Part shown: in pieces, positions 30,186-58,726 of the stretch
Numbering within the stretch: the stretch's first letter is position 1
How the letters are laid out: every line of letters starts with the position of its first letter
Assembly: GCA_016342755.1 (NCBI GenBank)
Contig: JAEINS010000003.1
Coordinates: 124,001-188,000 of the forward strand
Source: Melioribacteraceae bacterium
GTDB taxonomy: Bacteria; Bacteroidota; Ignavibacteria; Ignavibacteriales; Melioribacteraceae
Length of the DNA: 64,000 bases
Reading direction: 5' to 3'
Program-made: the position numbers and the translations under genes
The notes under the pieces: model-generated
Databases searched by the model: none
What the model was told of the DNA's origin: nothing
The model's input: only the letters and a program-made list of their open reading frames with translations

Positions 30186-31142
30186 TCAATTGCTATTTTT
30201 CACATCAATAATTTCTGCGGCAATACTGACCGCAATTTCATCGGGAGTTTCAGATTTTATCTTTACTCCTATTGGGGAATGTATATTCTCGAATATTTCT
30301 TCTTTAATGCCGGCTTTTAATAGATTTTCTTTAATTTCTTTAACTTTTCGTTTGCTTCCCATCATTCCAAGATATTTCAAATTTTTTCCTATTAAAGATT
30401 TTAACGCCTCCTCATCACCAGAATGTTCAAATGTTACAATCACAACATAAGAGTTTTCACCTTCCTCAAGAAACTGATCAACATTTACATACTTATCAAT
30501 TATTTGAAATTTTATCTCATTTTTGTTGATTGATGACAAATCCAAATCGTTTCTATGATCAAGAAGTATAACCTCAAAATTTAATAAATTAAGCAGATTT
30601 GCGGTTGCTAATCCAACATGACCAGCTCCAACAATATAAACTTTATCAGATATTCCCGCTTTTTCAGAATATTCCCAATCTTCATTTTCTAATGAAAAAA
30701 CATATTTCATGGTTTTTAAATTACATTTGGTAATTTCTAGTCTGTTATTATTAAAAGAAACAATTTTAGGAATGAAATTTTTCTCCGCTTCCAGCAACAC
30801 ATTTATATTTTCTATGTCATCTTCACAAAATTTCCAGATTATCACATCCTGGCTGCCACCACATATCATTCCGGAACTGTCTTTCTCAGATTGCTGATGA
30901 ACAAACTTTTTTAATTCTTTTACGGATTCATTTTCTGCAATTATCTTTTTCGAATATTCAACGAGATCGAACTCTATTTTGCCGCCGCCAATTGTTCCAA
31001 ATAATTCATTATCACCAGAGACAGCCATTTTAAAACCTTGTCGGCCAGGCGCAGAACCTTTTGATTGAGCAACAACTAAAAGCACAACTGATATATTTTT
31101 TTCAAGCTTTGTGAGGATGAACTTCCAGATATTTTTCTTCAT
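30186..31142 (-). CDS. xdhC: XdhC-family molybdenum cofactor maturation factor
   Basis: This 318-residue protein has an N-terminal XdhC/CoxI domain (LLVVAQSKGSAPGRQGFKMA, TIGGGKIEFDLVEYS, SGMICGGSQDVIIW) and a C-terminal Rossmann domain (KVYIVGAGHVGLATANLLNL, LGMMGSKRKVKEIK, IHSPIGVKIKSETPDEIAVS). XdhC binds Moco, promotes its sulfuration and inserts it into xanthine dehydrogenase. The order xdhA-xdhB-xdhC is the classic one; the gene starts 4 bases after the xdhB stop. It may also serve the second molybdoenzyme of the island. Confidence 0.92.
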   Translation of the reverse strand: MKKNIWKFILTKLEKNISVVLLVVAQSKGSAPGRQGFKMAVSGDNELFGTIGGGKIEFDLVEYSKKIIAENESVKELKKFVHQQSEKDSSGMICGGSQDVIIWKFCEDDIENINVLLEAEKNFIPKIVSFNNNRLEITKCNLKTMKYVFSLENEDWEYSEKAGISDKVYIVGAGHVGLATANLLNLLNFEVILLDHRNDLDLSSINKNEIKFQIIDKYVNVDQFLEEGENSYVVIVTFEHSGDEEALKSLIGKNLKYLGMMGSKRKVKEIKENLLKAGIKEEIFENIHSPIGVKIKSETPDEIAVSIAAEIIDVKNSN

Positions 31143-31146
31143 TTTA

Positions 31147-33402
31147 TTATTTACCGTATAATGACATTAAAACTTTCTCAGGTGTGATTGGTGCAGAATA
31201 ATTAATTTCTAATTTGGGATTGAAAGATTTAATTGCGTTGATAATAGAAAAGTATCCGCCAATTCCATACATAAACGGAGGCTCGCCAATTGCCTTAGAA
31301 TTCAAGGGTCCAAATCTGTTTTCTGAATCTTCAAGAAATTCAATTTCAATTTCATCCGGAGCAAAATAAATATCCGGCACTTTGTAAGTTGATAAAGTAT
31401 CCGATAACAATTTACCGTTAACATTATGCGCAATTTCTTCTATTGTTAACCAACCTAATCCCTGAACAACCGCTCCTTCAGTTTGCCCTTTATCCACAAC
31501 CGGATCAATACTTTTACCAAAATCGTGAACCAGTTTAACGCTTTCTATATTGTAAATTCCACGCACACAATCTACTTTTGAAGTTATAACCGCAGTTCCG
31601 TAAACATGATAAGCGAATGGATTTCCCTTGTTTGTCTCTTTATCAAAATAAATCTCCGGAGTTGTATATAGTGCCTGGGAACTTAGATTTACTCTATTAA
31701 AATAAGCCTGTTCAATTAAACCGTTCCATGCTAAATCCGTTTTTTCACCCGATATATATACTGTTCCATTTTTAATTGAAATCAATTTTGGATCAGTTAT
31801 ATTAAGAATTTCGGCAGCTCTATTTATCAATCTATCTAATAAATTATTACATGCAATAAAAACAGCATTCCCATTTAAATCGGCACCACTACTGGCTGCC
31901 GTTGGAGAAGTGTTTGCAACACGGGTTGTATTAGTAGATTCAACAGTAATCAGTTCAACCGGAATTGAAAACACATTAGCCGCAATTAATCTTAATTTCT
32001 GATTTACACCCTGTCCCATTTCCACAGCAGCTGCACTAATCTGAACAGATCCATCAGTATATATGTGAATTAATGCACTTCCCTGATTTAGAAACGAGTT
32101 AGTAAAACTAATTCCAAAACAGATAGGCATTATAGCAATACCCTTTTTATACTGATCATTCTCACTATTAAATTTCTTAACATCTAACTTTAGCTGATTA
32201 TAATTGTACAAATCAGTTGTTTGATTAAAACATTTTTGAGCATTACAATTATTTAACACTTGTCCATAATGTGTAACATCTTTTTCGCTAACAAGATTTT
32301 TCTTCTGAATTTCTTCTACATCAATACCCATTTCTTCTGCAGCTTTATGAATAGCTGCTTCAATCACAAACATTGCCTGTGGACCTCCAAACCCTCTAAA
32401 AGCAGTATTAGGAGCCAGATTTGTACGGCAGCAGTATCCAGTAGATTTAACATTAGGAATTGAATAACTATTTGTCGCATGAAATAATGAACGATCCAGA
32501 ATTGGAGTAGAAAGATCTGCGCATGCTCCGGAATTTTGATAATAAGAAACTTCGTATGCTAATATTTTTCCTTCTTTATTTAATCCAATTTTATAATCCG
32601 AAATATATGGATGACGTTTTCCGGTTATAACTAAATCGTCATGTCTGTTCAAAACAAGTTTCGCCGGTCTTTGAAGAATATATGCCGCTAAACCGGCCAT
32701 TGCTCCAAATGCTGTTGCCTGATCTTCTTTTCCGCCAAAAGCTCCGCCTAGCCTAAGAACATCAACCTCTACAAAATGCATTGGTATATTAAGCACTTTA
32801 GAAACTGCTTTCTGCACGTACGTTGGCCCCTGAGTTGAAGAAATGATTTTTATTTTTTTCCCTTCAACAGGAATTGCAATGGAACCCTGTGTTTCCAAAT
32901 ACAAATGTTCTTGTCCGCCGGTTTCTACTGTATCTTCGAAGATATAATCACAACAATCCCATGTATTATAAATATCCCCGCATGAAAAAATTCTGGGAGG
33001 AATTATCAATTCGCCTTTTTCACAAGCTTCTTTAGGATCAGTTATAACAGGCAATTCTTCATATTTAATATTAATCAGTGATTTTGCCTTGTGGGCAGTT
33101 CGCTTATCTTTAGCGGCAATAATTGCAATTGGTTCACCAATATATGTTACTTCATTCTCAGCCAGTAACGTTTCATCATGTATAATTCCGCCAATCTGAT
33201 TTTCACCAATTATATCTCCGGCAGTAATTATTTTTTTAACTCCGTCCAATTTTTCTGCTTCGGAATAATCTACACTCACAATTTTTGCATGTGCTACTGA
33301 GGAATAAAAAACATCCAGAATTAATGTTCCATCCGGAGTTGGGAAATCATCTATAAATAAAGATTTTCCTTTTATATGTTTTTCTGTATCAAGATTTTTC
33401 AT
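31147..33402 (-). CDS. xdhB: Xanthine dehydrogenase, molybdopterin-binding subunit
   Basis: This 751-residue large subunit of the two-subunit bacterial xanthine dehydrogenase hydroxylates hypoxanthine and xanthine to urate. Marks of the family are GSIAIPVEGKKIKIISSTQG, LGGAFGGKEDQATAFG, TAFRGFGGPQAMFVIE with the conserved Arg, AAVEMGQGVNQKL for the Moco contact, and KAIGEPPFMYGIG with the catalytic Glu at the C-terminus. It overlaps xdhA by four bases. Members of this superfamily also act on other N-heterocycles, so xanthine is the likely but not proven substrate. Confidence 0.92.
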   Translation of the reverse strand: MKNLDTEKHIKGKSLFIDDFPTPDGTLILDVFYSSVAHAKIVSVDYSEAEKLDGVKKIITAGDIIGENQIGGIIHDETLLAENEVTYIGEPIAIIAAKDKRTAHKAKSLINIKYEELPVITDPKEACEKGELIIPPRIFSCGDIYNTWDCCDYIFEDTVETGGQEHLYLETQGSIAIPVEGKKIKIISSTQGPTYVQKAVSKVLNIPMHFVEVDVLRLGGAFGGKEDQATAFGAMAGLAAYILQRPAKLVLNRHDDLVITGKRHPYISDYKIGLNKEGKILAYEVSYYQNSGACADLSTPILDRSLFHATNSYSIPNVKSTGYCCRTNLAPNTAFRGFGGPQAMFVIEAAIHKAAEEMGIDVEEIQKKNLVSEKDVTHYGQVLNNCNAQKCFNQTTDLYNYNQLKLDVKKFNSENDQYKKGIAIMPICFGISFTNSFLNQGSALIHIYTDGSVQISAAAVEMGQGVNQKLRLIAANVFSIPVELITVESTNTTRVANTSPTAASSGADLNGNAVFIACNNLLDRLINRAAEILNITDPKLISIKNGTVYISGEKTDLAWNGLIEQAYFNRVNLSSQALYTTPEIYFDKETNKGNPFAYHVYGTAVITSKVDCVRGIYNIESVKLVHDFGKSIDPVVDKGQTEGAVVQGLGWLTIEEIAHNVNGKLLSDTLSTYKVPDIYFAPDEIEIEFLEDSENRFGPLNSKAIGEPPFMYGIGGYFSIINAIKSFNPKLEINYSAPITPEKVLMSLYGK

Positions 33403-34805
33403 AACAAATCCCCCATTTTAATCTGTTGGGGATAAAATTTTAGGAAGTGAGCTTTAAGAAGTTGTTTAAAGAGAAGTCTTTTATAATCGGCACTTCCGCG
33501 CACATCACTAATTGGGGAAATTTCAGTCTCCGCGATTTCTATTGTCCGGATTATATTTTCTTTATTAATTTCCTTCCCGGTTAAAAATTCACATGCTCTT
33601 TTTAAGAACAATGGAATTGGTGCCACTCCTCCGCCAGAAATATAAACAGTTTTAACAATTCCCTCTTCATCATCAATATACATTGCGCTATTAACCGAAG
33701 CTATATCTAAGTGTCGTCTTTTAGAAACCTTTTCAAAATTAAATTTACCGTTAGGAAGATTAAAAACTATCCACTCAATAATATCATCTTTTTCCATGTT
33801 TAACTTTTTGTAATCAAGAAAAAGATCTTTTAGATGAAATACTTTTTTCTCTTCTTTATTACTGATAATTATTGAAGCATTTAATGCTAGCAGAATTACA
33901 CTCATTCCGCCAATGGGCGAAGCGTTAACAATATTACCAGCTATTGTAGCACTATTACGTATCTGAAGTGATGCTACAAGTTTAAAATAATCGTCCATCA
34001 TTGGGAAATACTGCTGAAGCTCAGTAGAAGTCTTTATCATTTCGAAGGTTACTGTGCTGCCTAAAAAACACCTATTACCTTTAAAGTTAATTTCACACAT
34101 ATCATTTTGCGAAATAAATGTAAGATCGTGCTCAAAAAGTTCTTCAGGAGTTTGAACAAATAAGTCTGTTCCCCCGCCAATTATTTTATGATGTTTCTGA
34201 AGACACTCTGATCTTTCAGATATAAGTTCATTTATAGAGATTAATCGTTCTTTAATTCCTGGTAAATAATCTGGAACCAAACCTTTATTTATCAAATCAT
34301 CAAGTTCATAACTATTAGAAACAAACTCAGTTGTTAACTCTTTAATAGCTCGTTTAATTGAAGAATATCCGGTACATCTGCAAATATTTCCGGCAACAGA
34401 ATTAACAACTTCGTCATACATTAATTTATTGTGAGTTAAAAGGTGCGCGGTTAAAGACATAATAAAACCAGGCGTACAGAACCCGCATTGCGAAGCACCT
34501 TCATCGTAAAATAGTTTTTGGATTTTGTTTAACGAATCAGTATTAATTCCTTCAATCGTTAGAATGTGTTTGCCAGCGGCATTTCCAATTGGATAGAGAC
34601 AAGAATTTATAGCTCTATATTTTATCTTTCCATTTTTTAATTTACCAACAATAACAGTACATGCACCGCAATCACCCTCGCGGCAGCCTTCTTTAGTCCC
34701 GGTCAATTTTAATGTATCTCTTAATAAATCTAATAAAACAGAACCAGGATTTACTTCAACTTCAACCAATTCATTATTAACAATAAGGGAAATTTTTCTT
34801 TGCAT
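33399..34805 (-). CDS. xdhA: Xanthine dehydrogenase, Fe-S/FAD subunit
   Basis: This 468-residue electron-transfer subunit has a plant-type 2Fe-2S domain (C41, C46, C49 in GCREGDCGACTVIVG), a second 2Fe-2S domain (CGFCTPGFIM; CRCTGYSSIKRA) and an FAD-binding domain (HHKIIGGGTDLFVQ; RNSATIAGNIVNASPIGGMS), ending in a CO-dehydrogenase-flavoprotein C-terminal domain. It passes electrons from Moco to NAD+ or another acceptor. The start overlaps the mocA-like stop as TAATG. Size and domain order match Rhodobacter XdhA. Confidence 0.93.
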   Translation of the reverse strand: MQRKISLIVNNELVEVEVNPGSVLLDLLRDTLKLTGTKEGCREGDCGACTVIVGKLKNGKIKYRAINSCLYPIGNAAGKHILTIEGINTDSLNKIQKLFYDEGASQCGFCTPGFIMSLTAHLLTHNKLMYDEVVNSVAGNICRCTGYSSIKRAIKELTTEFVSNSYELDDLINKGLVPDYLPGIKERLISINELISERSECLQKHHKIIGGGTDLFVQTPEELFEHDLTFISQNDMCEINFKGNRCFLGSTVTFEMIKTSTELQQYFPMMDDYFKLVASLQIRNSATIAGNIVNASPIGGMSVILLALNASIIISNKEEKKVFHLKDLFLDYKKLNMEKDDIIEWIVFNLPNGKFNFEKVSKRRHLDIASVNSAMYIDDEEGIVKTVYISGGGVAPIPLFLKRACEFLTGKEINKENIIRTIEIAETEISPISDVRGSADYKRLLFKQLLKAHFLKFYPQQIKMGDLL

Positions 34806-35482
34806 TAATTAGATTCCACCTCTAAATCAATTTTCATTATTCTGTTGTAATCCGATATAGTATCAATATCATCAAGAGCTTGAGGAAACGGGCTCTCATA
34901 ATACCGTTTCATAACAACAAAATCTCTAATAACTTCGCGCAGATTTGTTTTTTTATCTGATTCCAGGATTTGATTAAACAGACTTCTATTAATTAAGATT
35001 GGATGTCCTTTAACGCCTTCATATTTCGGCTGAATCCAATCAACATCATTGTAAGTCAGGCTTATAAATTCATCATAAAACGATCTTGGTAATGTAGGCT
35101 GATCAACAAAGTGATAAAGAACCCACTCGGAATCAGAAACTGTTCTTAATCCGGCTTGAAAGGAAGTAAACATCCCATCTTCATAAAGAGTATTTTCAAC
35201 AAACTCGAGTTTGTTTTTCAAATGATCAATCATAACAGAATTAAGCTCAATATCACTTTCATTAGCAAGTGTTTCTTTATCATTAAGCAATTCATTTAAT
35301 TTTTCTTTAATCAGCCCGCCCTGATGACCGGTTACAACAATTAGCTTGTTGCAGACCCTGCTCATCTTAAATAAAATGTTTAAAGCAAATGGTAACCCTT
35401 CATATTGCATTAAGGGTTTAAATTCGCCCATCCGTTTAGAAAACCCACCACAAATTAAAATGCCATTTGTCTCGCCAAACAT
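34805..35482 (-). CDS. MocA-like molybdenum cofactor nucleotidyltransferase
   Basis: This 225-residue nucleotidyltransferase has the signature GILICGGFSKRMGEFKPLMQ, matching the GxxxRMGxxK loop of MobA/MocA/IspD-like enzymes, followed by NKLIVVTGHQGG and LYHFVDQPTL (Asp for metal binding). MocA cytidylylates Moco to MCD for xanthine-dehydrogenase-family enzymes, and E. coli YgfJ occupies the corresponding place in its selenium/molybdenum locus. It directly precedes xdhAB with a one-base overlap, supporting a cofactor role. A promoter candidate (TTTG-N18-TAACTTGG) lies just upstream. Confidence 0.85.
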   Translation of the reverse strand: MFGETNGILICGGFSKRMGEFKPLMQYEGLPFALNILFKMSRVCNKLIVVTGHQGGLIKEKLNELLNDKETLANESDIELNSVMIDHLKNKLEFVENTLYEDGMFTSFQAGLRTVSDSEWVLYHFVDQPTLPRSFYDEFISLTYNDVDWIQPKYEGVKGHPILINRSLFNQILESDKKTNLREVIRDFVVMKRYYESPFPQALDDIDTISDYNRIMKIDLEVESN

Positions 35483-35574
35483 AATTGCACCAAGTTAGTT
35501 AGTTTTTTAATATAACAAATTTTGATTCAAAAACATCTTCATAGAATTATTTTTCTATTCCGATTAATAAAATA

Positions 35575-36843
35575 TTAGATATTCAACAAACTTCGTTTAA
35601 TTTTTTCTTCACTTTTAGGAGTAATTTCATTAATCCATTTTTTAATAGAAGCACTATCTTTTAATCCGGTTCCCGTTATTAAAAGTAAACCTTTCCAGTT
35701 CTTATCAATTAAACCTTTATCAAGCCCTAGTTTTAATCCGGCAAAAGATGCAGCAGCAGCCGGTTCCGCTAAAACACCGTAATTCTGAGCAAATTCCTTT
35801 TGAGCTATCAGTATATCTTCGTCCTTCACTCCAATTGGAAATCCGTTTGTTTCCTTAACTGCTTTTGATGCCATATATAAATTTCTTGGCGCGCCGGCAC
35901 AAATACTGTCTGCTATTGTGTTTGCACTTTCAAATTTAAATTGATCTGTTTCTAAATATCGTACTAAAGCATTGCTTCCCTCGGCCTGAACCGCAATAAG
36001 CATAGGTATTTTTTCGATCCATCCAAGTTGCAATAAATCAGAAAAGCCTTTATATATTCCCGATATAATAACTCCGTCACCTACCGGAACTACTATGAAA
36101 TCTGGTAATTTCCCTTTGTACCGAATAAACATATCAATTGCGGCCGATTTTTTCCCTTCAATTGTAAGCGGATTATAAGCTGTATTCCGGTTTAGCCAAT
36201 TATATTTTTCTGATAACTCCAAACATAAATCGTAAGCCTGGTCATAATCGCCATCTACTAAAAATGTTTCGGCTCCATAAGCCATTATCTGATTCAGCTT
36301 TTCACGGGGAATGTTTTTAGGAACAATTAGTTTTGATTTTAATCCAAGTCGCGAACAAATTCCGGCAAGTGAAGACCCGGCATTCCCAGTTGAAGCAGCA
36401 GCTATTTCATTAACTCCCAACTCAATCGCTTTTATTGCAACTAAGCTAGAGGCCCTATCCTTAAAAGAATAAGTAGGGTTTCGTGTTTCATCCCAGAAAT
36501 CGACTTCTATACCTTTATAATTGTTAGTTAACAGCGGATCTTCTAATAAGATTAATTTATTATAAACTGATTCTGATATTTTACTGAACTTTCCTTTATT
36601 AATTTTTAACGGCCATAGATAGGGATATTCCCAGAATCTCCCTATTCTCTTTCCCAATAAACCGGATCTGGAAATATTCTGTTTTATAAAATCTGTATCA
36701 TACTTTATTAATAAAACACCTTTCAGCGGTGTATTCTTTTTCGATTCCCCGCATTCAGGACAAAGATATATTTGGTTATCTTCTATCTTTTCAGCAGGAA
36801 ATTCAGAATCACAATCGAAACATTTATAATAATAATGAGTCAT
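35575..36843 (-). CDS. Threonine synthase-like PLP-dependent enzyme with N-terminal zinc ribbon
   Basis: This 422-residue fold-type II PLP enzyme begins with a zinc ribbon (CFDCDSEF then YLCPECGESK). The PLP lysine lies in NPTYSFKDRASSL, the phosphate-binding loop is AASTGNAGSSLAG, and FIVVPVGDGVIISGIYKG precedes the C-terminal LLLITGTGLKD. This is the ThrC architecture, yet the gene is inside the purine island, 3 bases after ygeW. In E. coli the place near ygeW is held by YgeX, diaminopropionate ammonia-lyase. I infer that this enzyme may deaminate a diamino- or amino-acid product of ring opening; ordinary threonine synthesis is the alternative. Confidence 0.8.
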   Translation of the reverse strand: MTHYYYKCFDCDSEFPAEKIEDNQIYLCPECGESKKNTPLKGVLLIKYDTDFIKQNISRSGLLGKRIGRFWEYPYLWPLKINKGKFSKISESVYNKLILLEDPLLTNNYKGIEVDFWDETRNPTYSFKDRASSLVAIKAIELGVNEIAAASTGNAGSSLAGICSRLGLKSKLIVPKNIPREKLNQIMAYGAETFLVDGDYDQAYDLCLELSEKYNWLNRNTAYNPLTIEGKKSAAIDMFIRYKGKLPDFIVVPVGDGVIISGIYKGFSDLLQLGWIEKIPMLIAVQAEGSNALVRYLETDQFKFESANTIADSICAGAPRNLYMASKAVKETNGFPIGVKDEDILIAQKEFAQNYGVLAEPAAAASFAGLKLGLDKGLIDKNWKGLLLITGTGLKDSASIKKWINEITPKSEEKIKRSLLNI

Positions 36844-36846
36844 GAT

Positions 36847-37851
36847 CTACATCGTTAATGACATTATTGATTTTGCAGTGTGCAGACGATTCTCAGCTTC
36901 ATCAAATACAATAGATATATCCGGGTTATCCAGTATCTCATCTGTTACTTCGTTTCCTCTATCGGCCGGAAGCGCATGCATAAGTTTTACATTCTTATCA
37001 GCTAAAGCAATTCTTTTATCGTTACAAATCCAGTTATGATATTTCTCTAAGTTTACTTTCATTTCTTTTTTACATTCATCTTCATTATCCAAATAATCCT
37101 GAACACCGTAATGGCCAAATCCTCCCCAGTTTTTTGGAATAACAATATGCGCCCCTTCAAATGCTTCATCCATATCATTAGTGAATTTTAGACTTCCACC
37201 ACCGTCTTTTGCATTCTTCTCAGCTTTTTCAACAATGTCCTTGCTTAAAGGAAATTCTTTTGGATGCGCGACTGTAACATCAATTCCATATCTGGGAAAT
37301 AACAGAATTTGTGTTTGCGGAACTGATAATGGTTTTGAATGTGTATCGGCATAAGCCCATGAAACCGTGACTTTAAGATTTTTAGTATCAGAGCCGCAAT
37401 GTTCAAATATCGTCATTAAATCTGCAAGCCCCTGGAATGGATGATATATATCATCCTGTAATGACATAATAGGCTTTGTAGAGTTCTCTGCCATTTCGGT
37501 TAAATACTTATTACCGATTCCATAAAAACAATTTCTGGATGCAATTCCGTGTCCCATACGCGAAAGGATAATTGCAGTATCTTTAGGAGCTTCGCCATGC
37601 GATAGCTGCATTTTATCGGCTGTTAAATCGTGTGCATGTCCGCCTAGCTGAGTCATACCGGCTTCCATAGAATTTCTTGTTCTGGTTGACTGTTCAAAAA
37701 ATATCATGAACAATGTTTTGTAAGGAAGGTCTAAAGTTAATTCCTCTTTATAAAATTTTTCTTTTAACTCTTTTGCTTTTTCAAATACTGTATCTAATTC
37801 TTCTTTTGTCCAATCATCACAAGTTAAAAAATGTTTCCCTTTTAAATCCAT
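36847..37851 (-). CDS. ygeW: YgeW-family knotted carbamoyltransferase
   Basis: This 334-residue transcarbamoylase-fold protein has the carbamoyl-phosphate site FEQSTRTRNSMEAGM near residues 53-67 and the HPFQGLADL motif near 138. The amino-substrate loop is HALPADRGNEVTDEIL, not the HCLP of ornithine transcarbamoylase. Insertions such as GHAHDLTADKMQLSHGEAPK fit the YgeW/unknown-carbamoyltransferase group. In the purine pathway it is thought to work towards carbamoyl phosphate, removing carbamoyl groups from ureido products. It lies between ygeY (43 bases) and the ThrC-like gene (3 bases). Confidence 0.88.
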   Translation of the reverse strand: MDLKGKHFLTCDDWTKEELDTVFEKAKELKEKFYKEELTLDLPYKTLFMIFFEQSTRTRNSMEAGMTQLGGHAHDLTADKMQLSHGEAPKDTAIILSRMGHGIASRNCFYGIGNKYLTEMAENSTKPIMSLQDDIYHPFQGLADLMTIFEHCGSDTKNLKVTVSWAYADTHSKPLSVPQTQILLFPRYGIDVTVAHPKEFPLSKDIVEKAEKNAKDGGGSLKFTNDMDEAFEGAHIVIPKNWGGFGHYGVQDYLDNEDECKKEMKVNLEKYHNWICNDKRIALADKNVKLMHALPADRGNEVTDEILDNPDISIVFDEAENRLHTAKSIMSLTM

Positions 37852-37894
37852 AACATCTCCTATTGATAAATCAAATGAAGCCGATGAAATCTAT

Positions 37895-39088: not shown

Positions 39089-39220
39089 TTGAATACCGTT
39101 ATAATTTGGTCAAATTTGTTTTCCAGAATGAATTTAAAAAAAACAAAATTTTAATTCAATAATATCTTATATTTAAAATAAATTTTGCTTTAGAGGAATT
39201 GCTAATAATAAGGGGTTAAA
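39089..39220. promoter_or_regulatory. Divergent ygeY/ygfK regulatory region
   Basis: These 132 AT-rich bases hold the promoters of both arms. A -7-like TATATTTA at 39168-39175 points towards ygfK and AGGGGTT precedes its ATG. No clear operator is seen. Confidence 0.5.
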
Positions 39221-42286: not shown

Positions 42287-42365
42287 CTTTATCATTATAA
42301 TAATAGATTTCTCACCTCGTTAAACTAGGGATTAGAGATGATAGATTTTATAATCTGGAACAGTT

Positions 42366-42848
42366 CTATTGTGAGAGATCTGTTATCATATCAGTATCTG
42401 CCGTTGCTCTGGCAGCATCTATAATTTGTTTATAACCAGTACAGCGGCATAAATTACCGGCAATTGCTTCTTTTATTTCTTCATCAGCTGGATTGTTATT
42501 CTTCAATAATAATGCATAGATCGACATTATCATCCCCGGTGTACAGTAACCACACTGAACAGCTCCATACTTCAAAAAATTTTCTTGCAGTACATTTAAC
42601 TTCCCATTTTCCGAAACACCTTCTATAGTTAATATTTCAGAATCTATTAACTGTCCTGCTAACACAAGACATGAATTTACCGCTAGTTTATTCATAATTA
42701 TAGTACAGGCACCACATTCCCCAATGCTACAGCCTTCTTTTGTACCCGTAAGTGAAAAATCTTCACGAAGTATGTCTATCAATCGCCTGTTTTCATCAGT
42801 CTCTAATTTTACTTTTTTCCCATTGAGAATAAAACTAATTTGAATCAT
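42366..42848 (-). CDS. Molybdenum hydroxylase 2Fe-2S subunit (XdhD-associated)
   Basis: This 160-residue small subunit has two 2Fe-2S sites: C40, C45 and C48 in GCSIGECGACTIIMN and the C-terminal set in CGYCTPGMIMSIYA and NLCRCTGYKQI. It is the third gene of a three-subunit hydroxylase (large, FAD, Fe-S in transcription order) and would carry electrons from Moco to FAD. It ends convergent with ygfK, 79 bases apart. Confidence 0.93.
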   Translation of the reverse strand: MIQISFILNGKKVKLETDENRRLIDILREDFSLTGTKEGCSIGECGACTIIMNKLAVNSCLVLAGQLIDSEILTIEGVSENGKLNVLQENFLKYGAVQCGYCTPGMIMSIYALLLKNNNPADEEIKEAIAGNLCRCTGYKQIIDAARATADTDMITDLSQ

Positions 42849-42856
42849 TTCGTTTC

Positions 42857-43723
42857 CTAATTGTATAAAATTTTTCTTAACAACTGATATAATGACTGCT
42901 GAACAACCGGCAATTTATAATCACTGGACCAGCGAAGTCCGGTTATATCTAAAACTGTCTTACCAACTTTTTGCGATAAAGTAATAAGTAAATCTTTGTT
43001 TATTTTTTTAGAAGTACTAAAATTTTCAACTTCATCAAATCTTATTGCAACAGGCGCAATAGCACCACCAGCAATGCGCAAATCTTTGATGATATTATTT
43101 TCTGTATATATAAGAACCGATAGACTCAGTCTGCTTATCGCAACTCCCCGCCGTCTTCCAAGTTTATAAAAATCGCCTTTATAATTTTTCCTGAGTTTTG
43201 GAATTTGAATAAAAGTAATTATCTCATCATCACCAAGAAGTGTGCTATATGGTTTTTGAAGAAAATCTTTGAGCATAATCTGTTTTCTTAAATGTTTAGA
43301 CTGGATTATCAATGAAGCATCATAACATAATAATGGCGATAGTGAATCGGCACATGGTGCATTATTCACAATATTCCCCCCTATTGTAGCTCTATTTCTT
43401 ATTTGCAGACTTCCTACTTTTGAAGAAGCCTTACATAACAGAGGGAACTCCTGATTCAATAATTCATTTCCTACAATATCAGTAAAAGTTAATCCTGAAC
43501 CTATTAGAACATTGTTATTAGTTTCTTTTACGGATTCTAATTCACTTACAGCGTTAATATCAATTAGTCTTTTTACATTTGAAAATCTCGATGAACTTTG
43601 CATCATTCCGGGTATTACATCGGTTCCGCCGGAAATTATTTTTGTTTTAATTGAGGAATTACTTAAAAGTTGAAGCACTTCTTCAAGATTTTTTGCCTTT
43701 ATGAATTCAAAATTATTTAACAT
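42857..43723 (-). CDS. Molybdenum hydroxylase FAD-binding subunit
   Basis: This 288-residue medium subunit has the FAD-binding PCMH-type motifs TKIISGGTDVIPGM and RNRATIGGNIVNNAPCADSL and a C-terminal CO-dehydrogenase flavoprotein domain (KLGRRRGVAISRLSLSV). It corresponds to E. coli YgfM, found next to xdhD. It overlaps the large-subunit stop by one base and is 8 bases before the 2Fe-2S gene. Confidence 0.92.
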   Translation of the reverse strand: MLNNFEFIKAKNLEEVLQLLSNSSIKTKIISGGTDVIPGMMQSSSRFSNVKRLIDINAVSELESVKETNNNVLIGSGLTFTDIVGNELLNQEFPLLCKASSKVGSLQIRNRATIGGNIVNNAPCADSLSPLLCYDASLIIQSKHLRKQIMLKDFLQKPYSTLLGDDEIITFIQIPKLRKNYKGDFYKLGRRRGVAISRLSLSVLIYTENNIIKDLRIAGGAIAPVAIRFDEVENFSTSKKINKDLLITLSQKVGKTVLDITGLRWSSDYKLPVVQQSLYQLLRKILYN

Positions 43724-46113
43724 TATGCACTGCCTCTTTTTACTGATGCTGGAGATAACTTCCGATTCAAAACAATTTCCTCCAGATTTAACGGGAGATT
43801 TCTATACCTGACACCAGTTGCGTTATATATAGCATTACTTATTGCAGCCGAAGTCAGCTCAAGTGTTGGTTCTCCCAACGATTTAGCGCCCCAGGGACCA
43901 TACTCCTCTTCACCTTCAACAAAATGTACATCAATATTATCTATATCTTTACTTGTTGGGATTAATAATTCATCAAAATTTTGATGTTTAATTTTTCCGT
44001 CTATTGTATTAAGTTCTTCCCACAAACATAATCCTGCTCCTTGTGTAACACCACCGTAAACCTGTCCCTTTGCACCTAACAAATTAATCACCTTACCGGG
44101 ATCATGTACTGCTGTAATGTTTTCTATGTATACTTCTCCGGTTGTAATATTAACTTTTACTTCCGCAACCTGACATCCATATACATAAGTAAAATAAGCA
44201 TTGCCCTGACCTTTCTCTTCATCCCAGTCAACATTAGGGCCCGCATACCAGCCAACCGCCGAAATATTAACTCCCTTATTATAAGCCAGTTTACAAAGGT
44301 CTTTGAAACTCATTGAATATTTATCATAAGTAACCATTCCATTTGTAAATTCAACCCGGGCAATTTGGGGAATATTATAGTTTTCAATAAATACATCCAA
44401 TAAATTTCTTTTAATCTTTTCAGTCGCATCTTTTACAGCACCACCTCCCATTATAGTAGATCTGGAAGCCACTGTTGGACCACTATCCATAACATAGCCA
44501 GTGTCAATACCAAGATAAAACACATCTTCAAATGGAATTCCTAAAACCTCTGAAACTACTATGGAAAAAGTGGTTCGCAACCCCTGTCCATTTTCAGCTA
44601 ATCCTGAATGCAAATATACAGAGCCATCGTTTTGTAAGGAAACAAAAACTGAGGCAGCATCAATACCTTCGGCACCGAGAGAACATCCTCTAAAACTGCA
44701 TGATAATCCAATACCTCTTCTCCAGACATTTTCCGGTTCTATAAATTGTTCTTTATCAAGTATAAACTCTTTTTCTCTTTGTTCTGAACCAATAATAAAA
44801 TCTTTTTGAACTCTGTCCTTAGAAAACTTTTCCCACTTATCATTAAATCCTGATTCATCGGATGCTTTAGCTAATACTTTTTTTAATGTTACTTCATGCG
44901 AGTTTAATATTTGTCCGCTTGCTGTTACTGATCCGGAGTTATATCCATTGATTTCACGAAGCTTAAAGGGAGATATTTTTAATTCTTCCGCTATCTCGTC
45001 CATCAACGATTCTTGAGCAAAAACAGGCTGCGGGGAACCAAATCCGCGAAATGCACCAGTATATGGATTATTTGTATAAACACCTTTCACATTAGTTTCA
45101 ACATTTTCGATCTCATAAGACCCGGTTGCCTGAACAACTGATCGCCATGTTACAAAGGGAGTCATTGAAGCATAAGCACCGCCATCGGCAATAATATCAA
45201 TTTTCATCGCCTTTATTTTGCCATCCACATTAAACCCTGCCTTATATTTCATTTTATAAGGATGTCTTTTATACGATTCCAGAATAGAATCTTCCCGGTT
45301 ATATCTAATCTTTACCGGTCTATTACATTTTACCGCAGCAATAGAAGCTCTTGCAGCCAGCACATTCATTGTATCATCTTTTCCGCCAAATGAGCCGCCT
45401 AATTCTGCTTGTTCAACACGCACTTTTGCTAAAGGCCATCCAAGTACCGAAGCGGCAACACTTCTTGTTGTATGAGGATTTTGAATACTTCCAATTATCT
45501 TTACACCTTTATTTCCTTCTAGCGGAATTGCGATAACAGCTTCAGGTTCAATATATGCATGCTCCTGATAAGATGTAGAGTAACTTCTCTCTATCACATA
45601 ATCACTGTTTTTAAACCCTTCTTCAACATTCCCTTTTCTCAAAGGATATTCACAAATAAGATTATTTGAAGATTCTTCATGTATAACCGGGGCATCTTCA
45701 TTCATTGCTAAAGATGAATTAGATAAAATCGGGAGTTCACTATATTCAACTTTTATTTTCGTCAGCAGTTTTTTTATTTCTTTTTCATTATTGCCGACTA
45801 ACATTGCCAAAACATCACCTGAAGTTCTAACTTTATCGAAACAAAAAATAGGCTGATCTTTTTTAATAGCTCCAACTTTTTTTGCTCCGGGAATATCTTC
45901 AGAAGTTATAATTGCAGTTAAGTTTTTATTATCTGCAATCTCTGAAAAATCAATACTCTTAATTTCAGCGTGTACAACTGTTGTTCTGAGCATTACCCCA
46001 TATAATATATCTTTCAATACAATATCATCCGCAAACATTGCAGTACCGGTTACTTTTTCTAATCCGTCTTGTCTTATAACTTCTTTGCCAACAATTGAAA
46101 AATCTTTTTTCAT
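43723..46113 (-). CDS. Molybdopterin-binding subunit, XdhD-like hydroxylase
   Basis: This 796-residue molybdenum hydroxylase large subunit has YIEPEAVIAIPLEGNKGVKI, ELGGSFGGKDDTMNVLAARA, GAFRGFGSPQPVFAQ, the Moco contact GLAENGQGLRTTFSIV and the C-terminal GAKSLGEPTLELTSA with the catalytic Glu. The ENGQG loop (not EMGQG as in XdhB here) and the three-gene layout resemble the XdhD/selenium-dependent branch. Substrate is likely a purine other than that of XdhAB, or the same ring at another position; that is inference. The stop-start junction with the ssnA gene overlaps by four bases. Confidence 0.9.
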   Translation of the reverse strand: MKKDFSIVGKEVIRQDGLEKVTGTAMFADDIVLKDILYGVMLRTTVVHAEIKSIDFSEIADNKNLTAIITSEDIPGAKKVGAIKKDQPIFCFDKVRTSGDVLAMLVGNNEKEIKKLLTKIKVEYSELPILSNSSLAMNEDAPVIHEESSNNLICEYPLRKGNVEEGFKNSDYVIERSYSTSYQEHAYIEPEAVIAIPLEGNKGVKIIGSIQNPHTTRSVAASVLGWPLAKVRVEQAELGGSFGGKDDTMNVLAARASIAAVKCNRPVKIRYNREDSILESYKRHPYKMKYKAGFNVDGKIKAMKIDIIADGGAYASMTPFVTWRSVVQATGSYEIENVETNVKGVYTNNPYTGAFRGFGSPQPVFAQESLMDEIAEELKISPFKLREINGYNSGSVTASGQILNSHEVTLKKVLAKASDESGFNDKWEKFSKDRVQKDFIIGSEQREKEFILDKEQFIEPENVWRRGIGLSCSFRGCSLGAEGIDAASVFVSLQNDGSVYLHSGLAENGQGLRTTFSIVVSEVLGIPFEDVFYLGIDTGYVMDSGPTVASRSTIMGGGAVKDATEKIKRNLLDVFIENYNIPQIARVEFTNGMVTYDKYSMSFKDLCKLAYNKGVNISAVGWYAGPNVDWDEEKGQGNAYFTYVYGCQVAEVKVNITTGEVYIENITAVHDPGKVINLLGAKGQVYGGVTQGAGLCLWEELNTIDGKIKHQNFDELLIPTSKDIDNIDVHFVEGEEEYGPWGAKSLGEPTLELTSAAISNAIYNATGVRYRNLPLNLEEIVLNRKLSPASVKRGSA

Positions 46114-47459
46114 AATAAAGCCTGGTTAGATTTCAAAATCTCATAAAGGCTGTTACCAGCTTTGTATATTTGTTTAGAAAATAATTCCATATCTGGTACT
46201 TTAGTTCTAAAGTTATTCATCAAAAATTCGCCACCGGAAATTGACGATTTAACACTTCGTTCTATTATTCCGTATAAATAATGCCCCATAAAATTATCTT
46301 CTGTTAAAGGAGTCGGAGGGACATAATCCCAGACAATAAAATCGGCACTATCATTTTCTTTTAGATTTGAATAATGTGGATAATACTTTTTAATAAATTC
46401 AATTTGATCAAAATACACCCGGTTTATAAGCCTAAAAGATTCTTCAAAACTTTTTCCATTACAACGCAGCATTAAAAATAATTGTTTCATCGATTTTGCA
46501 ACATTAGCATGCATACCATCGGTGCCTAATAAAAACATCTGATTCTCTGAAAACTCACTTATACAAGGAAATCCGACAGAATTATTCATATTAGAATCAG
46601 GATTAAAAACTATTGCGCATTTATAATTGTCCAACAATTCATAATCGTCTTTATTTAAATAAACCGCGTGTGATAATATGCTTCTGTCATTTACCAGATT
46701 ATAATTTATTAACCGTTCTAAAGGTCTGGCTCCATATTTGTCTTTACTGATTATATTATCCGATTCATCTTCACTTAGATGAATATGTATACCTATCTCA
46801 GAACCTTTTATATATTTTTCAACATGTCTTAGAGTATCATTATTTAAAGTAAAAGAAGCATGTAATCCGTACATGCCTTTAAAATCATCATCACAATAAT
46901 CAACTAAAAATGAATTGTTTTCAAGAAGAGCATCCTGCTTTAATTTATCCCCGTTTCTATCAGAGGTTTCAAATGCCAAAACTCCTTTTAGTCCATATTC
47001 TCTTAATACTGATTTAATACATTCTAAACTGCCCTCTGTTACGCCAGGAGAAGCATGATGATCAAATATATATTGCACACCGTTTAATATGGACTCATAC
47101 GCAGCCATATGAGCTGAAGCAACTATCATATCTTTGTCTAAAGCAAGATCAAGTTTCCACCACAGATTTTTCAGAATATTTTGAAAATTATCCATTGGCC
47201 CATTAAGAGGTAAACCTTTTGCAAGCCTGGAATAGATATGATCATGAAAATTCACATTTGGAACAGTTATAACCGCACCCTGAACATCATAACAGTCGGA
47301 ATCAATTATATCATACTCAAGCTCCGTAAATTCATTAAAATTCCGCTCAAAGATATTTTTGTTTTTACCTTCTTCAATTGTAAAATCGCAAAATATAGGT
47401 TTTACTGAACGATTTTCAATTTGGCATAACCATGCGTTTTTTACTTTCATAGCAAACAA
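46110..47459 (-). CDS. ssnA: SsnA-family amidohydrolase
   Basis: This 449-residue amidohydrolase-superfamily protein has its metal-binding HxH at H72 and H74 (VPNVNFHDHIYSRLAKGLP), followed by YIFDHHASPGV, IGIHIHLSED, ILSHAVYLN and the Asp of LLGTDGMHANVAKSM. This matches SsnA, related to chlorohydrolase/guanine-deaminase-type enzymes and encoded with ygfK and xdhD in E. coli. In the urate pathway it is expected to open or deaminate a ring intermediate. It is placed between the hydantoinase-like gene (directly abutting) and the XdhD-like gene. Confidence 0.9.
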   Translation of the reverse strand: MFAMKVKNAWLCQIENRSVKPIFCDFTIEEGKNKNIFERNFNEFTELEYDIIDSDCYDVQGAVITVPNVNFHDHIYSRLAKGLPLNGPMDNFQNILKNLWWKLDLALDKDMIVASAHMAAYESILNGVQYIFDHHASPGVTEGSLECIKSVLREYGLKGVLAFETSDRNGDKLKQDALLENNSFLVDYCDDDFKGMYGLHASFTLNNDTLRHVEKYIKGSEIGIHIHLSEDESDNIISKDKYGARPLERLINYNLVNDRSILSHAVYLNKDDYELLDNYKCAIVFNPDSNMNNSVGFPCISEFSENQMFLLGTDGMHANVAKSMKQLFLMLRCNGKSFEESFRLINRVYFDQIEFIKKYYPHYSNLKENDSADFIVWDYVPPTPLTEDNFMGHYLYGIIERSVKSSISGGEFLMNNFRTKVPDMELFSKQIYKAGNSLYEILKSNQALL

Positions 47460-48905
47460 TTATTTTGTTAACAAATTTCCATGATAATCAGGTGAATATA
47501 TTTTTCCTCTATCTACTATTTTACGGCCTCTTAAAAACACTTCTGAGATTGATGATTTCAGTTCTATACCATTAAACGGTGTATATTTACCCTTGCAAAG
47601 CATTTCTTTCGAGTTTATTTTTTGGTTTTTATACAGATCAACTAAAGTAATATCCGCATCAAACCCTTTTAATATCGTGCCTTTATCAGTAAGCCCAAAT
47701 ATTTCGGCAACACCGGCTGATAAAAGATGAACCGTTGTCTGAAGATCAATTTTTCCTTTAAAGAACCCTTCGCTCAACATATAATTTACTCTATGCTGAA
47801 CTCCGGGAATTCCGCCATAAACTTCCCAGAAATCATCTGATATTTTTTCCTTTAATGGATCACATCCCGCATGATCAGTAGTTACAAATGAAATAGTTCC
47901 GTCTTTAAGTCCATTCCATAAGGCATCTCTATCAGTTTCAAACTTTACTGGCGGAGCGGTTTTTAGAAGTTTTGTAATTTTAGGATCATCAAAATCTATT
48001 TGTGTAAACTGTAAATAATGAGGACAAGTTTCTGTGGTAACTCTGACACCCTGTTTCTGAGCTTTCCTAATCAGACCTAATCCAAGCGCTGAACTTAGAT
48101 GAACAATATGAATATGACAACCGGTTTCGGCAGCTATATTTATTACATTGAATACAGCTTTCGCTTCAGCCTGATCATCTCTGGCACCGCAATAAGCTCC
48201 CCAGTCACTTTTTAAGTTCATCCTCGCAGACTTTTCTCTGTCTGTTACCAACTTCTTATCTTCGGCATGAACCGCAAGAATTGAATTATTTTCTTTCACT
48301 ACCTGAGCGGCAATTTTAATCTGTTCATAAGTCAGATCAGTAAAAGACTGCATACCAGAAATTGTATAAACTTTGAATCCGGCAACGCCTGATTCACATA
48401 ATTCTTTAACTTGTTTTTTTAATTTGTTAATCTCTTCAAAATCATTCCCGGAAATTCCGCCCCAGAATTTGTAATCAATAAAGGCTTTACCGGATAAAGC
48501 TTTTTGTTTTATACTAAAATTTTCCTTAGAAGTAACCGGAGGAATCGAGGTACAGGGCATATCAAAAATTGTTGTAGTTCCGCCGACTGCGGCAGATTTG
48601 CTGGCATATTCGAATTCATCTCTAAACTCAAACCCGGGAGTATTAAAATGTACATGTGCATCAATTGCTCCAGGTATAGCTAGCTTAAACCCGCCATCAA
48701 AAACTTGAATACTCTCAGAATAATTTTTGCTTTCAACTTGACTTATAAATAAATCAAACTGTTCTTTGTTTTCAATTTCCAGCCAATCAATTTCCTTATT
48801 AAATGCGGGCTCTACACTTGTTATCCTTTCATCAAAATAGATATCAACTAATTGAAGTTTGTTAAATCTAGTAGATATTAAAACATTTTTAATCACTTTC
48901 TGCAT
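47460..48905 (-). CDS. hyuA: Allantoinase/dihydropyrimidinase-type cyclic amidohydrolase (HyuA-like)
   Basis: This 481-residue cyclic-amide hydrolase has metal ligands H84 and H86 in IDAHVHFNTPG, a carbamylatable Lys in SGVAGFKVYTISGM, LAVHAED, HIHIVHLSSA, TTETCPHYLQF and the catalytic Asp in FVTTDHAGCD. The motifs are nearer to allantoinase than to D-hydantoinase. About 25 extra residues lie between the N-terminal beta domain strands (roughly 35-65). In the island it would hydrolyse a five- or six-membered ureide ring; allantoin, a hydantoin or a reduced purine product are candidates. It is contiguous with ssnA and the PLP-enzyme gene. Confidence 0.9.
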   Translation of the reverse strand: MQKVIKNVLISTRFNKLQLVDIYFDERITSVEPAFNKEIDWLEIENKEQFDLFISQVESKNYSESIQVFDGGFKLAIPGAIDAHVHFNTPGFEFRDEFEYASKSAAVGGTTTIFDMPCTSIPPVTSKENFSIKQKALSGKAFIDYKFWGGISGNDFEEINKLKKQVKELCESGVAGFKVYTISGMQSFTDLTYEQIKIAAQVVKENNSILAVHAEDKKLVTDREKSARMNLKSDWGAYCGARDDQAEAKAVFNVINIAAETGCHIHIVHLSSALGLGLIRKAQKQGVRVTTETCPHYLQFTQIDFDDPKITKLLKTAPPVKFETDRDALWNGLKDGTISFVTTDHAGCDPLKEKISDDFWEVYGGIPGVQHRVNYMLSEGFFKGKIDLQTTVHLLSAGVAEIFGLTDKGTILKGFDADITLVDLYKNQKINSKEMLCKGKYTPFNGIELKSSISEVFLRGRKIVDRGKIYSPDYHGNLLTK

Positions 48906-50369
48906 CTATAACAATCCTACCGCATTATTAAATTCGCTTATTTTTTTATCCCATTCCGGTACTATAGAAAATCTCTCGTCCCAATAATCTTCGTTGTACC
49001 ATTGCTGATTCAGTTCATCAACATCTTTTCCTTGCTGTTCAACCCATGTAAAATACTTTAAGTTATGAATTGCTTTTTTATCATAATAACTTAATTCTTT
49101 AAAGTTATCAGTTCCCTGCTTAAAAATTGATGCATTCAAATCTACATTAGCATGCAGCTCAGTATATTCACCTAACTCGTTATTCATTTCATCTAATCTT
49201 GAATTATACATTTCCACAGAATCAGTGAATATTGTAAATATGATATCATTTTCATTAAACTCATAATACTTTGCAAGTTTTATTGAAGCCAGTAAATTAC
49301 ATATAGATGAAATTCCTAATAAAGGAAGTTTTTTCAGAGTAGTTTCTGAAATTCCCATTTTAGCTAAAACTTCCTGTCCATTCTTTTCATTAAAAAGCCT
49401 TAATACTTTAAGAGTATCCAAATCATCAATTGCTGCAACGGTATCTGTGTTTTTTACATTGTGAACCCATGGAATATGCTTATCACCTATTCCTTCTATT
49501 CTATGTCCGCCATAACCGTTTAATAACAAGGTTGGGCATTGCAGTGCTTCAGTTGCTGTTATTTTAAGCAATGGATTTATCTTTCGCAAATAATCACCGG
49601 CACCAATAGTTCCGGCAGAACCGGTTGCACTTACATATCCTGATAATCTTTGATCACCTTTTTTTACACTATTAAACAGTTCTTCAATATTACTGCCTGT
49701 TATTTCATAGTGCCAGACTGGATTTCCGAACTGATCAAATTGATTAAAAATAAAATACTTATCTGATTTAGCTTCAAGTTCATGACATTTATCATAAATT
49801 TCTTTTACATTACTTTCACAACCCGGAGTTGCAAAAACCTCTTCAGCCCTTTCTCTAAGCCAGTCAAATCTTTCCTGACTCATTTCTTCGGGTAATATAG
49901 CTACAGAATCTACTGCTAATAAATTAGAATTAAAAACTCCACCACGACAGTAGTTTCCAGTAGAAGGCCAAACTGCCTTGTGATACTCAGGATTAAAGCG
50001 ACCGGTTGCCAAATAAGGTGCCAGACAGCCGTAAGTAGCTCCAACTTTATGAGCTCCGGTTGGGAAATGTTTTCCAACTAATCCAATTATTCTAGCTTTA
50101 ACTCCGGTTATCTCAGGCGGGATTTCAAAATAATTGATGTCACCAATCCCTTTATCAATGGGGTTATTTCTCCAGTTTATTCTAAATAAATTTAGAGGAT
50201 GAGTATCTTGGAAATCGATTTTTTTTAGTTTTTCTAAAATATTTGAAGGTATAGACTGTGGATTTTTAAGCTGCTCAAAAGTAGGAAGAATTATATTTCT
50301 TTCTCTACAACGTTTAATAGTATTTTCTAAATAATCAGAATTGAATACATCCCATTTCCATTCTTGCAT
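48906..50369 (-). CDS. Fold-type II PLP-dependent lyase-like enzyme of the purine island
   Basis: This 487-residue PLP enzyme has a TrpB-like lysine motif FPTGAHKVGATYGCLAPYLA and a phosphate-binding loop region SGYVSATGSAGTIGAGDYLR, then KITATEALQCPTLLLNGYGG. It is longer than cysteine synthase (about 310) and than E. coli YgeX (398) and has its own N- and C-terminal extensions. I recognise the superfamily but no precise function. As first gene of the hyuA-ssnA-xdhD transcription unit it is a second candidate for the final deaminating or beta-eliminating step that yields a keto acid and ammonia. Confidence 0.82.
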   Translation of the reverse strand: MQEWKWDVFNSDYLENTIKRCRERNIILPTFEQLKNPQSIPSNILEKLKKIDFQDTHPLNLFRINWRNNPIDKGIGDINYFEIPPEITGVKARIIGLVGKHFPTGAHKVGATYGCLAPYLATGRFNPEYHKAVWPSTGNYCRGGVFNSNLLAVDSVAILPEEMSQERFDWLRERAEEVFATPGCESNVKEIYDKCHELEAKSDKYFIFNQFDQFGNPVWHYEITGSNIEELFNSVKKGDQRLSGYVSATGSAGTIGAGDYLRKINPLLKITATEALQCPTLLLNGYGGHRIEGIGDKHIPWVHNVKNTDTVAAIDDLDTLKVLRLFNEKNGQEVLAKMGISETTLKKLPLLGISSICNLLASIKLAKYYEFNENDIIFTIFTDSVEMYNSRLDEMNNELGEYTELHANVDLNASIFKQGTDNFKELSYYDKKAIHNLKYFTWVEQQGKDVDELNQQWYNEDYWDERFSIVPEWDKKISEFNNAVGLL

Positions 50370-56314: not shown

Positions 56315-56399
56315 CTAAAATCTCCTAATATTATTATAAATATAGTCCAAAGTTAAAACTTAGTTTGGCTATTTTACATTTCTGAGGCAACATTTATAG

Positions 56400-58610: not shown

Positions 58611-58726
58611 GAATATCTGATAATCCATAATTATATAAAAATTATTCTAAAGATAGAATAATTATGTTTAATATATAAGTACAAAATTTATAGTACAGAG
58701 ATTCTAATGCCGCAAATTTCTTTTAA

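Follow-up and report, generated by a model that had tools for sequence, protein, structure and literature searches.

Fourteen genes at positions 30186–50369 of a 64,000-nucleotide window from a Melioribacteraceae bacterium (Ignavibacteria; assembly GCA_016342755.1, contig JAEINS010000003.1, positions 124,001–188,000 of the forward strand; the window is the whole stretch analysed, and coordinates are given within it) appear to encode a variant form of the oxygen-independent reductive uric acid pathway, in which a module of two pyridoxal phosphate (PLP)-dependent enzymes, PLP1 and PLP2, replaces the lyase YgeX. On sequence evidence, we give this reading a probability of roughly 0.68. It is very likely that the cluster serves reductive urate breakdown, PLP1, PLP2 or both probably stand in for YgeX, and the odds of PLP1, and not PLP2, being the lyase are about even. 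Gene content, gene order, co-occurrence, conserved residues and predicted fold were observed directly. The interval holds exactly 14 open reading frames (ORFs) of the purine set, 13 on the minus strand and ygfK alone on the plus strand. Two minus-strand operons flank ygfK, one running from ygeY (39088) to the gene of an XdhC-type factor (30186) and the other from PLP2 (50369) to the 2Fe-2S subunit gene of a molybdenum hydroxylase, XDH2 (42366), with intra-operon gaps of −4 to 92 bases in both. The first-pass annotation of this DNA was right about the purine cluster and about its likely role, and it overlooked the absence of YgeX, the last enzyme of the pathway. Finding a known pathway in another lineage is of moderate weight; what is new is the lack of YgeX together with the PLP1–PLP2 pair.

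The reductive urate route was set up with Escherichia coli and Clostridioides difficile enzymes in a study published in 2025 (PMC12507026). As outlined there, it leads from urate to yanthine (XdhD), through reduction and ring opening (YgfK or UacX with SsnA) and hydantoin opening (HyuA), to the removal of two ureido groups (YgeW or UacY; YgeY) and the conversion of diaminopropionate to pyruvate and ammonia (YgeX). For the present organism we infer every reaction, as well as what PLP1, PLP2 and XDH2 each do, as follows. A first xanthine dehydrogenase (XDH1) would oxidise xanthine to urate, which XDH2 would reduce to 2,8-dioxopurine (yanthine); YgfK would reduce the yanthine ring with NAD(P)H, and the SsnA-like protein would open it to give ureidomethyl-hydantoin, whose hydantoin ring the allantoinase-like enzyme would then open. 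The YgeW-like enzyme may remove one ureido group by phosphorolysis, yielding carbamoyl phosphate for a carbamate kinase encoded elsewhere, and YgeY would take off the other, leaving 2,3-diaminopropionate. PLP1 is the likeliest candidate for the 2,3-diaminopropionate ammonia-lyase in YgeX's place, and PLP2 may be a constant partner with the same C3 amino acids as substrates: it could be another lyase, a racemase that supplies PLP1, or an enzyme of beta-replacement.

Among the pathway proteins, YgfK and YgeY exceed their NCBIfam curated cut-offs and the others score under theirs (Table 1), with the expected family as the closest or, in the case of the carbamoyltransferase, with OTC closer; the families originally named hold in full for these two, and as homologues below cut-off for the SsnA-like, YgeW-like and MocA-like proteins and the xanthine dehydrogenases. 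YgfK is 44% identical to E. coli YgfK, with 17 cysteines in common, and YgeY is 52% identical to its E. coli counterpart. The SsnA-like protein (32% identity to E. coli SsnA) has His 72, 74, 225, 227 and 264 and Asp 314 invariant among 15 sequences including E. coli SsnA, residues that we take to include the metal ligands. XDH1 (31147 and 33399) keeps the canonical purine-binding and catalytic residues of xanthine dehydrogenases, which we take to be the equivalents of bovine Glu802, Arg880, Phe914, Phe1009 and Glu1261. XDH2 is a separate three-subunit enzyme (42366–46113) whose molybdenum subunit is 27% identical to E. coli XdhD and 29% to XdhA, with Asp where the bovine enzyme has Glu802.

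Phylogeny, which the first-pass annotation had named as a possible refutation of its reading, places the YgeW-like enzyme (34% identity to E. coli YgeW) with E. coli YgeW, apart from ornithine (OTC) and aspartate (ATC) carbamoyltransferases, with support of 97/98 in a tree of 26 sequences that took in these three groups and no acetylornithine enzymes. The two proteins share the motif WAY-x5-KPLSVPQ, and HALPAD in the window's enzyme takes the place of HCLPAD in E. coli; among the 26 sequences this Ala form is confined to the five from the window's own order, and HPLPAD is the form in L098 and L151. Three PF02729 proteins in the genome, including a separate OTC and ATC, rule out the cluster enzyme as the genome's sole OTC. 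Carbamate kinase is encoded on another contig beside the genome's own OTC, unlinked to the cluster, and passes its cut-off in 18 of the 19 genomes of the phylum counted as carrying YgfK. The cyclic amidohydrolase (30% identity to E. coli HyuA) falls on the E. coli AllB/PyrC side of its tree, apart from E. coli HyuA (support 99/97), with a weak join of its own to AllB (80/67); of the earlier label 'allantoinase-like HyuA', the first word is retained and the second is not. A search for co-occurrence, proposed in that annotation as a check, found ygeW and ygeY in the same or an adjoining stretch as ygfK in 15 of the 18 other YgfK genomes (exceptions G156, G381 and G031), which argues that the window's cluster is not a chance assembly. 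Together with the 14 ORFs, this linkage bears out the purine island as originally delimited, and gene content, order in relatives, one tree and the catalytic residues uphold its likeness to the urate clusters of gut anaerobes.

The genome (4.73 Mb) yielded no member of the YgeX family, its best score against the YgeX model being 54 bits (cut-off 532), with no YgeX match at E 1e-60. The genome encodes 10 PALP proteins, and none of the eight scanned against NCBIfam is YgeX. The set comprises IlvA, ThrC (298 bits) and a second threonine-synthase-family protein (L007), all over their cut-offs, two TrpB, a D-cysteine-desulfhydrase-type protein, PLP1, PLP2, and two proteins that, judged by sequence starts only, are TdcB/racemase-like (L004) and CysK-like (L005). 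The best PDB profile matches of PLP1 are threonine synthases, and PLP1 is 20% identical to the genome's ThrC; PLP1 as the sole threonine synthase was ruled out by the presence of ThrC and L007.

The two PLP enzymes travel together across the phylum. Among 395 genomes, 33 hold both, one holds PLP2 alone, none holds PLP1 alone and 361 hold neither (a PLP1 positive requiring a best piece of at least 269 bits here and in the wider sample below, which includes G413 with two pieces of 269.7 and 210.8 bits and leaves G290 at 221 and G437 at 182 negative). PLP2 is present in 19/19 YgfK genomes compared with 15/376 others, where the 19 are 18 genomes over the YgfK cut-off plus G082, in which the gene is divided between two contigs (808 and 470 bits), and 11 further genomes with YgfK matches of 337–381 bits were left out, half-length YgfK relatives in G140, G152, G255 and G093 among them. 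PLP1 and PLP2 lie on different contigs in several drafts (e.g. G116, G148 and G381), which hints that the pairing does not depend on adjacency alone, although fragmented assemblies could equally produce separate contigs. YgeX relatives occur in 10 of the 395 genomes, and in the five YgfK genomes that have one it is located on another contig or more than 100 kb from ygfK.

The partner reductase varies among the 15 PLP2 genomes without a full YgfK, 14 of which show other cluster genes (the remaining one, G326, is represented by 5.3 kb at a contig end and shows none). A half-length YgfK relative takes the reductase position in G140, G152, G093, G243 and G255, and a Pfam-checked dihydroorotate (DHO) dehydrogenase with an Fe-S domain in G035, G055 and G172; the stretches of G078 and G337 contain a GltD-like protein, and no reductase was identified in the fetched stretches of G333, G014, G228 and G251. 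The PLP pair thus stays while the reductase differs. Separately, the type of molybdenum subunit was seen to track the reductase type (L194, L195, L203, L205 and L068), a separate form of 853–871 residues standing beside the half-length YgfK and likewise next to the full but more distant YgfK in G124, and the G035 urate cluster contains a YhcG-type PDDEXK nuclease gene between its XDH2 subunits and its DHO-dehydrogenase gene (L190, 16886–17950).

Beyond the phylum sample, a scan of species genomes returned at least 508 stretches encoding a PLP2 relative (E ≤1e-3), and the best 80 (at least 59% identity over the best segment) place the family in no fewer than 80 named species genomes. Of these 80 stretches, 62 hold one or more of ygfK, ssnA, ygeW, ygeY, hyuA and PLP1 (L132 being doubtful), 47 hold two or more, and a single one holds YgeX. 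Among 38 named PLP2 loci at 66–78% identity, 23 belong to Ignavibacteria, Ignavibacteriales, Ignavibacteriaceae, Melioribacter(aceae) or Stygiobacter, in line with the original description of the genome as Ignavibacteria-like; the other 15 are seven labelled 'Bacteroidetes/Bacteroidota bacterium', six Calditrichota-type, one Caldisericaceae and one 'bacterium'. Fifty of 80 further PLP2 genomes were examined (22 Bacteroidetes-type, one Ignavibacteriales, 24 of other named phyla and three without a phylum name), with PLP1 in 43 and SsnA in 46; for the 24 of other named phyla the counts are 19 and 23. An SsnA positive required a best piece of at least 248 bits (in two pieces in G436 and G416), with G396 negative at 151 bits and no match in G412, G413 and G425. 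PLP1 is missing from G402, G409, G410, G412, G419, G434 and G437, three of which are Aminicenantes. In one of these three, G419 (L144/L220), YgeX lies some 10 kb away from PLP2, a single case that favours PLP1 over PLP2 as the exchangeable lyase. The 18 PLP2 loci without another core gene nearby had suggested a different role for PLP2; this was set aside, with the urate link kept, because SsnA is present elsewhere in all 15 of the genomes examined (L107, L109 and L111 were left out). Some PLP2 loci have further features of their own: a CpXC-domain protein (PF14353) follows PLP2 at both Elusimicrobia loci (L128, 3124–3840; L153, 3398–4039), and the Calditrichota stretches L108, L115, L118 and L121 include a YgeV-like sigma-54 regulator, with SsnA and PLP1 adjoining each other elsewhere in these genomes and DUF364/DUF4213 and HAD-hydrolase genes after PLP2 in L115.

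An AlphaFold2 model of PLP2 built from 51 sequences has a predicted local distance difference test score (pLDDT) of 90.4 and a predicted template modelling score of 0.92 (an earlier model from 10 sequences, with a pLDDT of 74, was not used). Over about residues 42–400 the model matches cysteine, beta-cyanoalanine and cystathionine synthases (best Z 32.9, root-mean-square deviation (rmsd) 2.4, 302 residues), with O-ureido-L-serine synthase also among the matches (Z 30.7, rmsd 2.8, 301 residues); these predicted-fold matches differ little in Z and do not point to a function. In an alignment with the genome's own CysK, K108 of PLP2 falls at the PLP-lysine region, and it is invariant in the 51 sequences; PLP2 scores 92 bits against the NCBIfam cysK model (cut-off 351).

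Several observations weigh against a variant urate pathway ending in a PLP1–PLP2 module. YgeX and the pair do not exclude each other: five YgfK genomes hold a YgeX relative beside the pair, and YgeX relatives are commoner in PLP2 genomes (7/34, these seven all under the cut-off) than in others (3/361). PLP2 persists beside YgeX in a single genome, G419, so it may lie outside the replacement; G156 carries YgfK and PLP2 without PLP1. Some copies are broken or cut, PLP2 being in two ORFs in G062 and the PLP1 matches of G140 and G381 holding stops. The Fisher values for PLP1 with PLP2 (2e-47) and YgfK with PLP2 (2e-23) are uncorrected for kinship and hence descriptive, and the PLP1 and SsnA counts outside the phylum come from PLP2 genomes only, with no PLP2-free set for comparison. 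The SsnA-like protein reaches 306 and 340 bits against cut-offs of 455 and 444, the YgeW-like enzyme 177 and 184 bits against YgeW cut-offs of 500 and 453, and the allantoinase-like enzyme and both molybdenum hydroxylases are likewise homologues below their NCBIfam cut-offs. XDH2 is proposed as the urate reductase from its gene position only; it lacks the XdhD segment with Glu606 and does not qualify as an XdhD orthologue. The C. difficile XdhD is likewise just 25.6% identical to that of E. coli in PMC12507026.

A standard urate cluster of the E. coli kind, with PLP1 as a diverged YgeX and PLP2 as an unrelated passenger, is unlikely. PLP1 and YgeX are both fold-type-II PALP proteins, and the neighbourhood figures of PMC12507026 coloured YgeX by the family PALP, so that any PALP near SsnA counted as YgeX there; against this, the match between PLP1 and YgeX covers just 132 residues at 23% identity, PLP1 scores closer to threonine synthase, and PLP2 shares 33 genomes of the phylum with PLP1 and accompanies SsnA in 46 of the 50 further genomes. 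Purine handling by an oxidative route via allantoin, using XDH1 and the allantoinase-type enzyme, is very improbable. The residues of XDH1 and the AllB-side placement of the hydantoinase would suit such a route, yet urate oxidase is not a best-matching family for any of the 14 genes (the check for uricase did not go beyond these 14), and PMC12507026 assigns YgfK, SsnA and YgeY to the reductive route. Ureidomethyl-hydantoin is allantoin plus one CH2, so an allantoinase-like enzyme would also fit the reductive route.

A chance position beside purine genes of three amino acid biosynthesis enzymes, with the YgeW-like protein as acetylornithine carbamoyltransferase, YgeY as deacetylase and PLP1 as threonine synthase, is more improbable still. 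The scores of the carbamoyltransferase against the OTC model (232 bits) and the acetylornithine model (201 bits) do match or exceed its 184 bits against the YgeW model, and PLP1 resembles threonine synthase. Against these points stand the genome's own OTC, ATC and ThrC, the passing of its own cut-off by YgeY, the recurrence of the linkage across the family, and the YgeW-type KPLSVPQ, which differs from KPLNTAV of the acetylornithine enzyme, a group outside the carbamoyltransferase tree.

Within the preferred reading, a reductive urate pathway with PLP1 and PLP2 in place of YgeX, a more far-reaching version is possible and is put forward tentatively. PLP2 might catalyse a reaction new to purine breakdown, and the pair might act on a C3 diamino or ureido-amino acid instead of one lyase converting diaminopropionate to pyruvate, for example as a racemase with a stereospecific lyase or by beta-replacement to a product such as cysteine; urate carbon and nitrogen would then leave as a different product, and the pair would be the prevailing terminal module for reductive urate breakdown in Bacteroidota sensu lato and several other phyla.

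No literature report of this pathway in the Ignavibacteria/Melioribacter lineage was found in a search that largely excluded subscription journals. PMC12507026, where the pathway was worked out with gut-bacterial enzymes and related to gout, lists Pseudomonadota, Bacillota, Chloroflexota, Actinomycetota, Spirochaetota and Elusimicrobiota, and its main text contains neither 'Bacteroid-' nor 'Ignavibacter-'. A study of Black Sea genomes including one Ignavibacteriota (PMC11129491) has xanthine dehydrogenases in most of them, and 'uric' is absent from its text. If our reading is correct, the same urate chemistry occurs across environmental lineages, with another final step, and marker surveys that seek YgeX, or score any PALP as YgeX, would miss or mislabel this variant. 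PLP2, a conserved PLP family without a curated NCBIfam model, now has a testable substrate hypothesis.

Table 1 Genes and intergenic region of the putative urate cluster, with window coordinates and the basis of each assignment.
Feature	Coordinates	Strand	Basis
XdhC-type molybdenum hydroxylase maturation factor	30186..31142	-	Pfam XdhC_C and XdhC_CoxI over cut-off; NCBIfam XdhC-related, under curated cut-offs
XDH1 molybdenum subunit, xanthine dehydrogenase type	31147..33402	-	TIGR02965 762 bits (cut-off 849.5, not reached)
XDH1 fused 2Fe-2S and FAD subunit	33399..34805	-	TIGR02963 337 bits (cut-off 467)
MocA/YgfJ-like molybdenum cofactor cytidylyltransferase	34805..35482	-	TIGR03310 106 bits (cut-off 186); NTP_transf_3 over cut-off
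PLP1, threonine-synthase-like fold-type-II PLP enzyme, N-terminal four-Cys motif	35575..36843	-	TIGR00260 159 bits (cut-off 167)
YgeW-like carbamoyltransferase, short HALPAD form	36847..37851	-	Tree and KPLSVPQ motif; under NCBIfam YgeW cut-off
YgeY, M20-family hydrolase, predicted for ureido group	37895..39088	-	PRK13004 545 bits (cut-off 321)
132-base divergent gap ygeY/ygfK, likely promoter region	39089..39220		Intergenic distance; promoter function presumed
YgfK, NAD(P)H-dependent Fe-S flavoprotein, predicted for reductive dearomatisation	39221..42286	+	TIGR03315 1311 bits (cut-off 835)
XDH2 2Fe-2S subunit	42366..42848	-	XdhC/PucE family, under cut-offs; 45% identity to E. coli XdhC
XDH2 FAD subunit	42857..43723	-	XdhB family, under cut-offs
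XDH2 molybdenum subunit, proposed urate reductase in XdhD's place	43723..46113	-	Molybdenum hydroxylase by family scan
SsnA-like aminohydrolase	46110..47459	-	Best family SsnA, under cut-offs
Allantoinase-like cyclic amidohydrolase, putatively in HyuA's place	47460..48905	-	TIGR03178 allantoinase 351 bits (cut-off 358)
PLP2, 487-aa cysteine-synthase-like PLP enzyme, unnamed family	48906..50369	-	No NCBIfam family over cut-off

Sigma-54 promoters were considered and dropped, with 30 matches in the window compared with 30.2 expected. Directly upstream of the cluster lies a second TrpB (50957–52180; TIGR00263 545 bits, over cut-off), the other TrpB of the genome (624 bits) being on contig C43. 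Further along, at 53426–58628, two large proteins that resemble each other lie side by side; both carry a C-terminal secretion-sorting tail and look aryl-sulfotransferase-like by eye. A butyryl-CoA:acetate/succinate CoA-transferase at 60672–62171 is over its NCBIfam cut-off (847 versus 740 bits), which hints at fermentative acyl-CoA metabolism. Away from the cluster and close to the end of a contig (L179, 13403–16630, G000:C30) is a pair of closely spaced genes of the purine permease family, one uacT-like (27%) and the other ghxQ-like (32%).

Compared with known systems, PLP1 belongs to the same fold-type-II PLP family as threonine synthase, at the low identity to the genome's ThrC given above and under the thrC cut-off. 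PLP2 has the fold of cysteine, beta-cyanoalanine and O-ureido-L-serine synthases, with 12–27% identity in structural alignments, and it differs in its length of 487 residues compared with about 300–340, having extra N- and C-terminal parts. The E. coli cluster (xdhA-C, ygeW-X-Y, hyuA, yqeA, mocA, ygfK, ssnA, ygfM and xdhD) shares with the window YgfK, YgeY and SsnA, along with a YgeW-clade carbamoyltransferase, a cyclic amidohydrolase, two molybdenum hydroxylases and a MocA-like protein. The window's cluster lacks YgeX, YqeA, XdhD-YgfM and the sigma-54 regulator YgeV, has PLP1 and PLP2 in addition, and carries an allantoinase-like enzyme for HyuA, a short HALPAD carbamoyltransferase and the distant three-subunit XDH2 for XdhD-YgfM. 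The first-pass annotation had equated the set with the E. coli yge/ygf locus: the likeness stands on gene content, conserved order, the tree and the catalytic residues, and the identity does not, with YgeX absent, two other PLP enzymes present, HyuA and XdhD-YgfM replaced and YqeA outside the cluster. The uricolytic cluster of C. difficile, with UacX and UacY, shows that individual steps are exchanged between lineages (PMC12507026), and a DHO-dehydrogenase-type protein, as in that system, is also found in the clusters of the relatives G035, G055 and G172. As described in that study, C. difficile keeps YgeX, whereas the window keeps YgfK and the YgeW-like enzyme, without YgeX.

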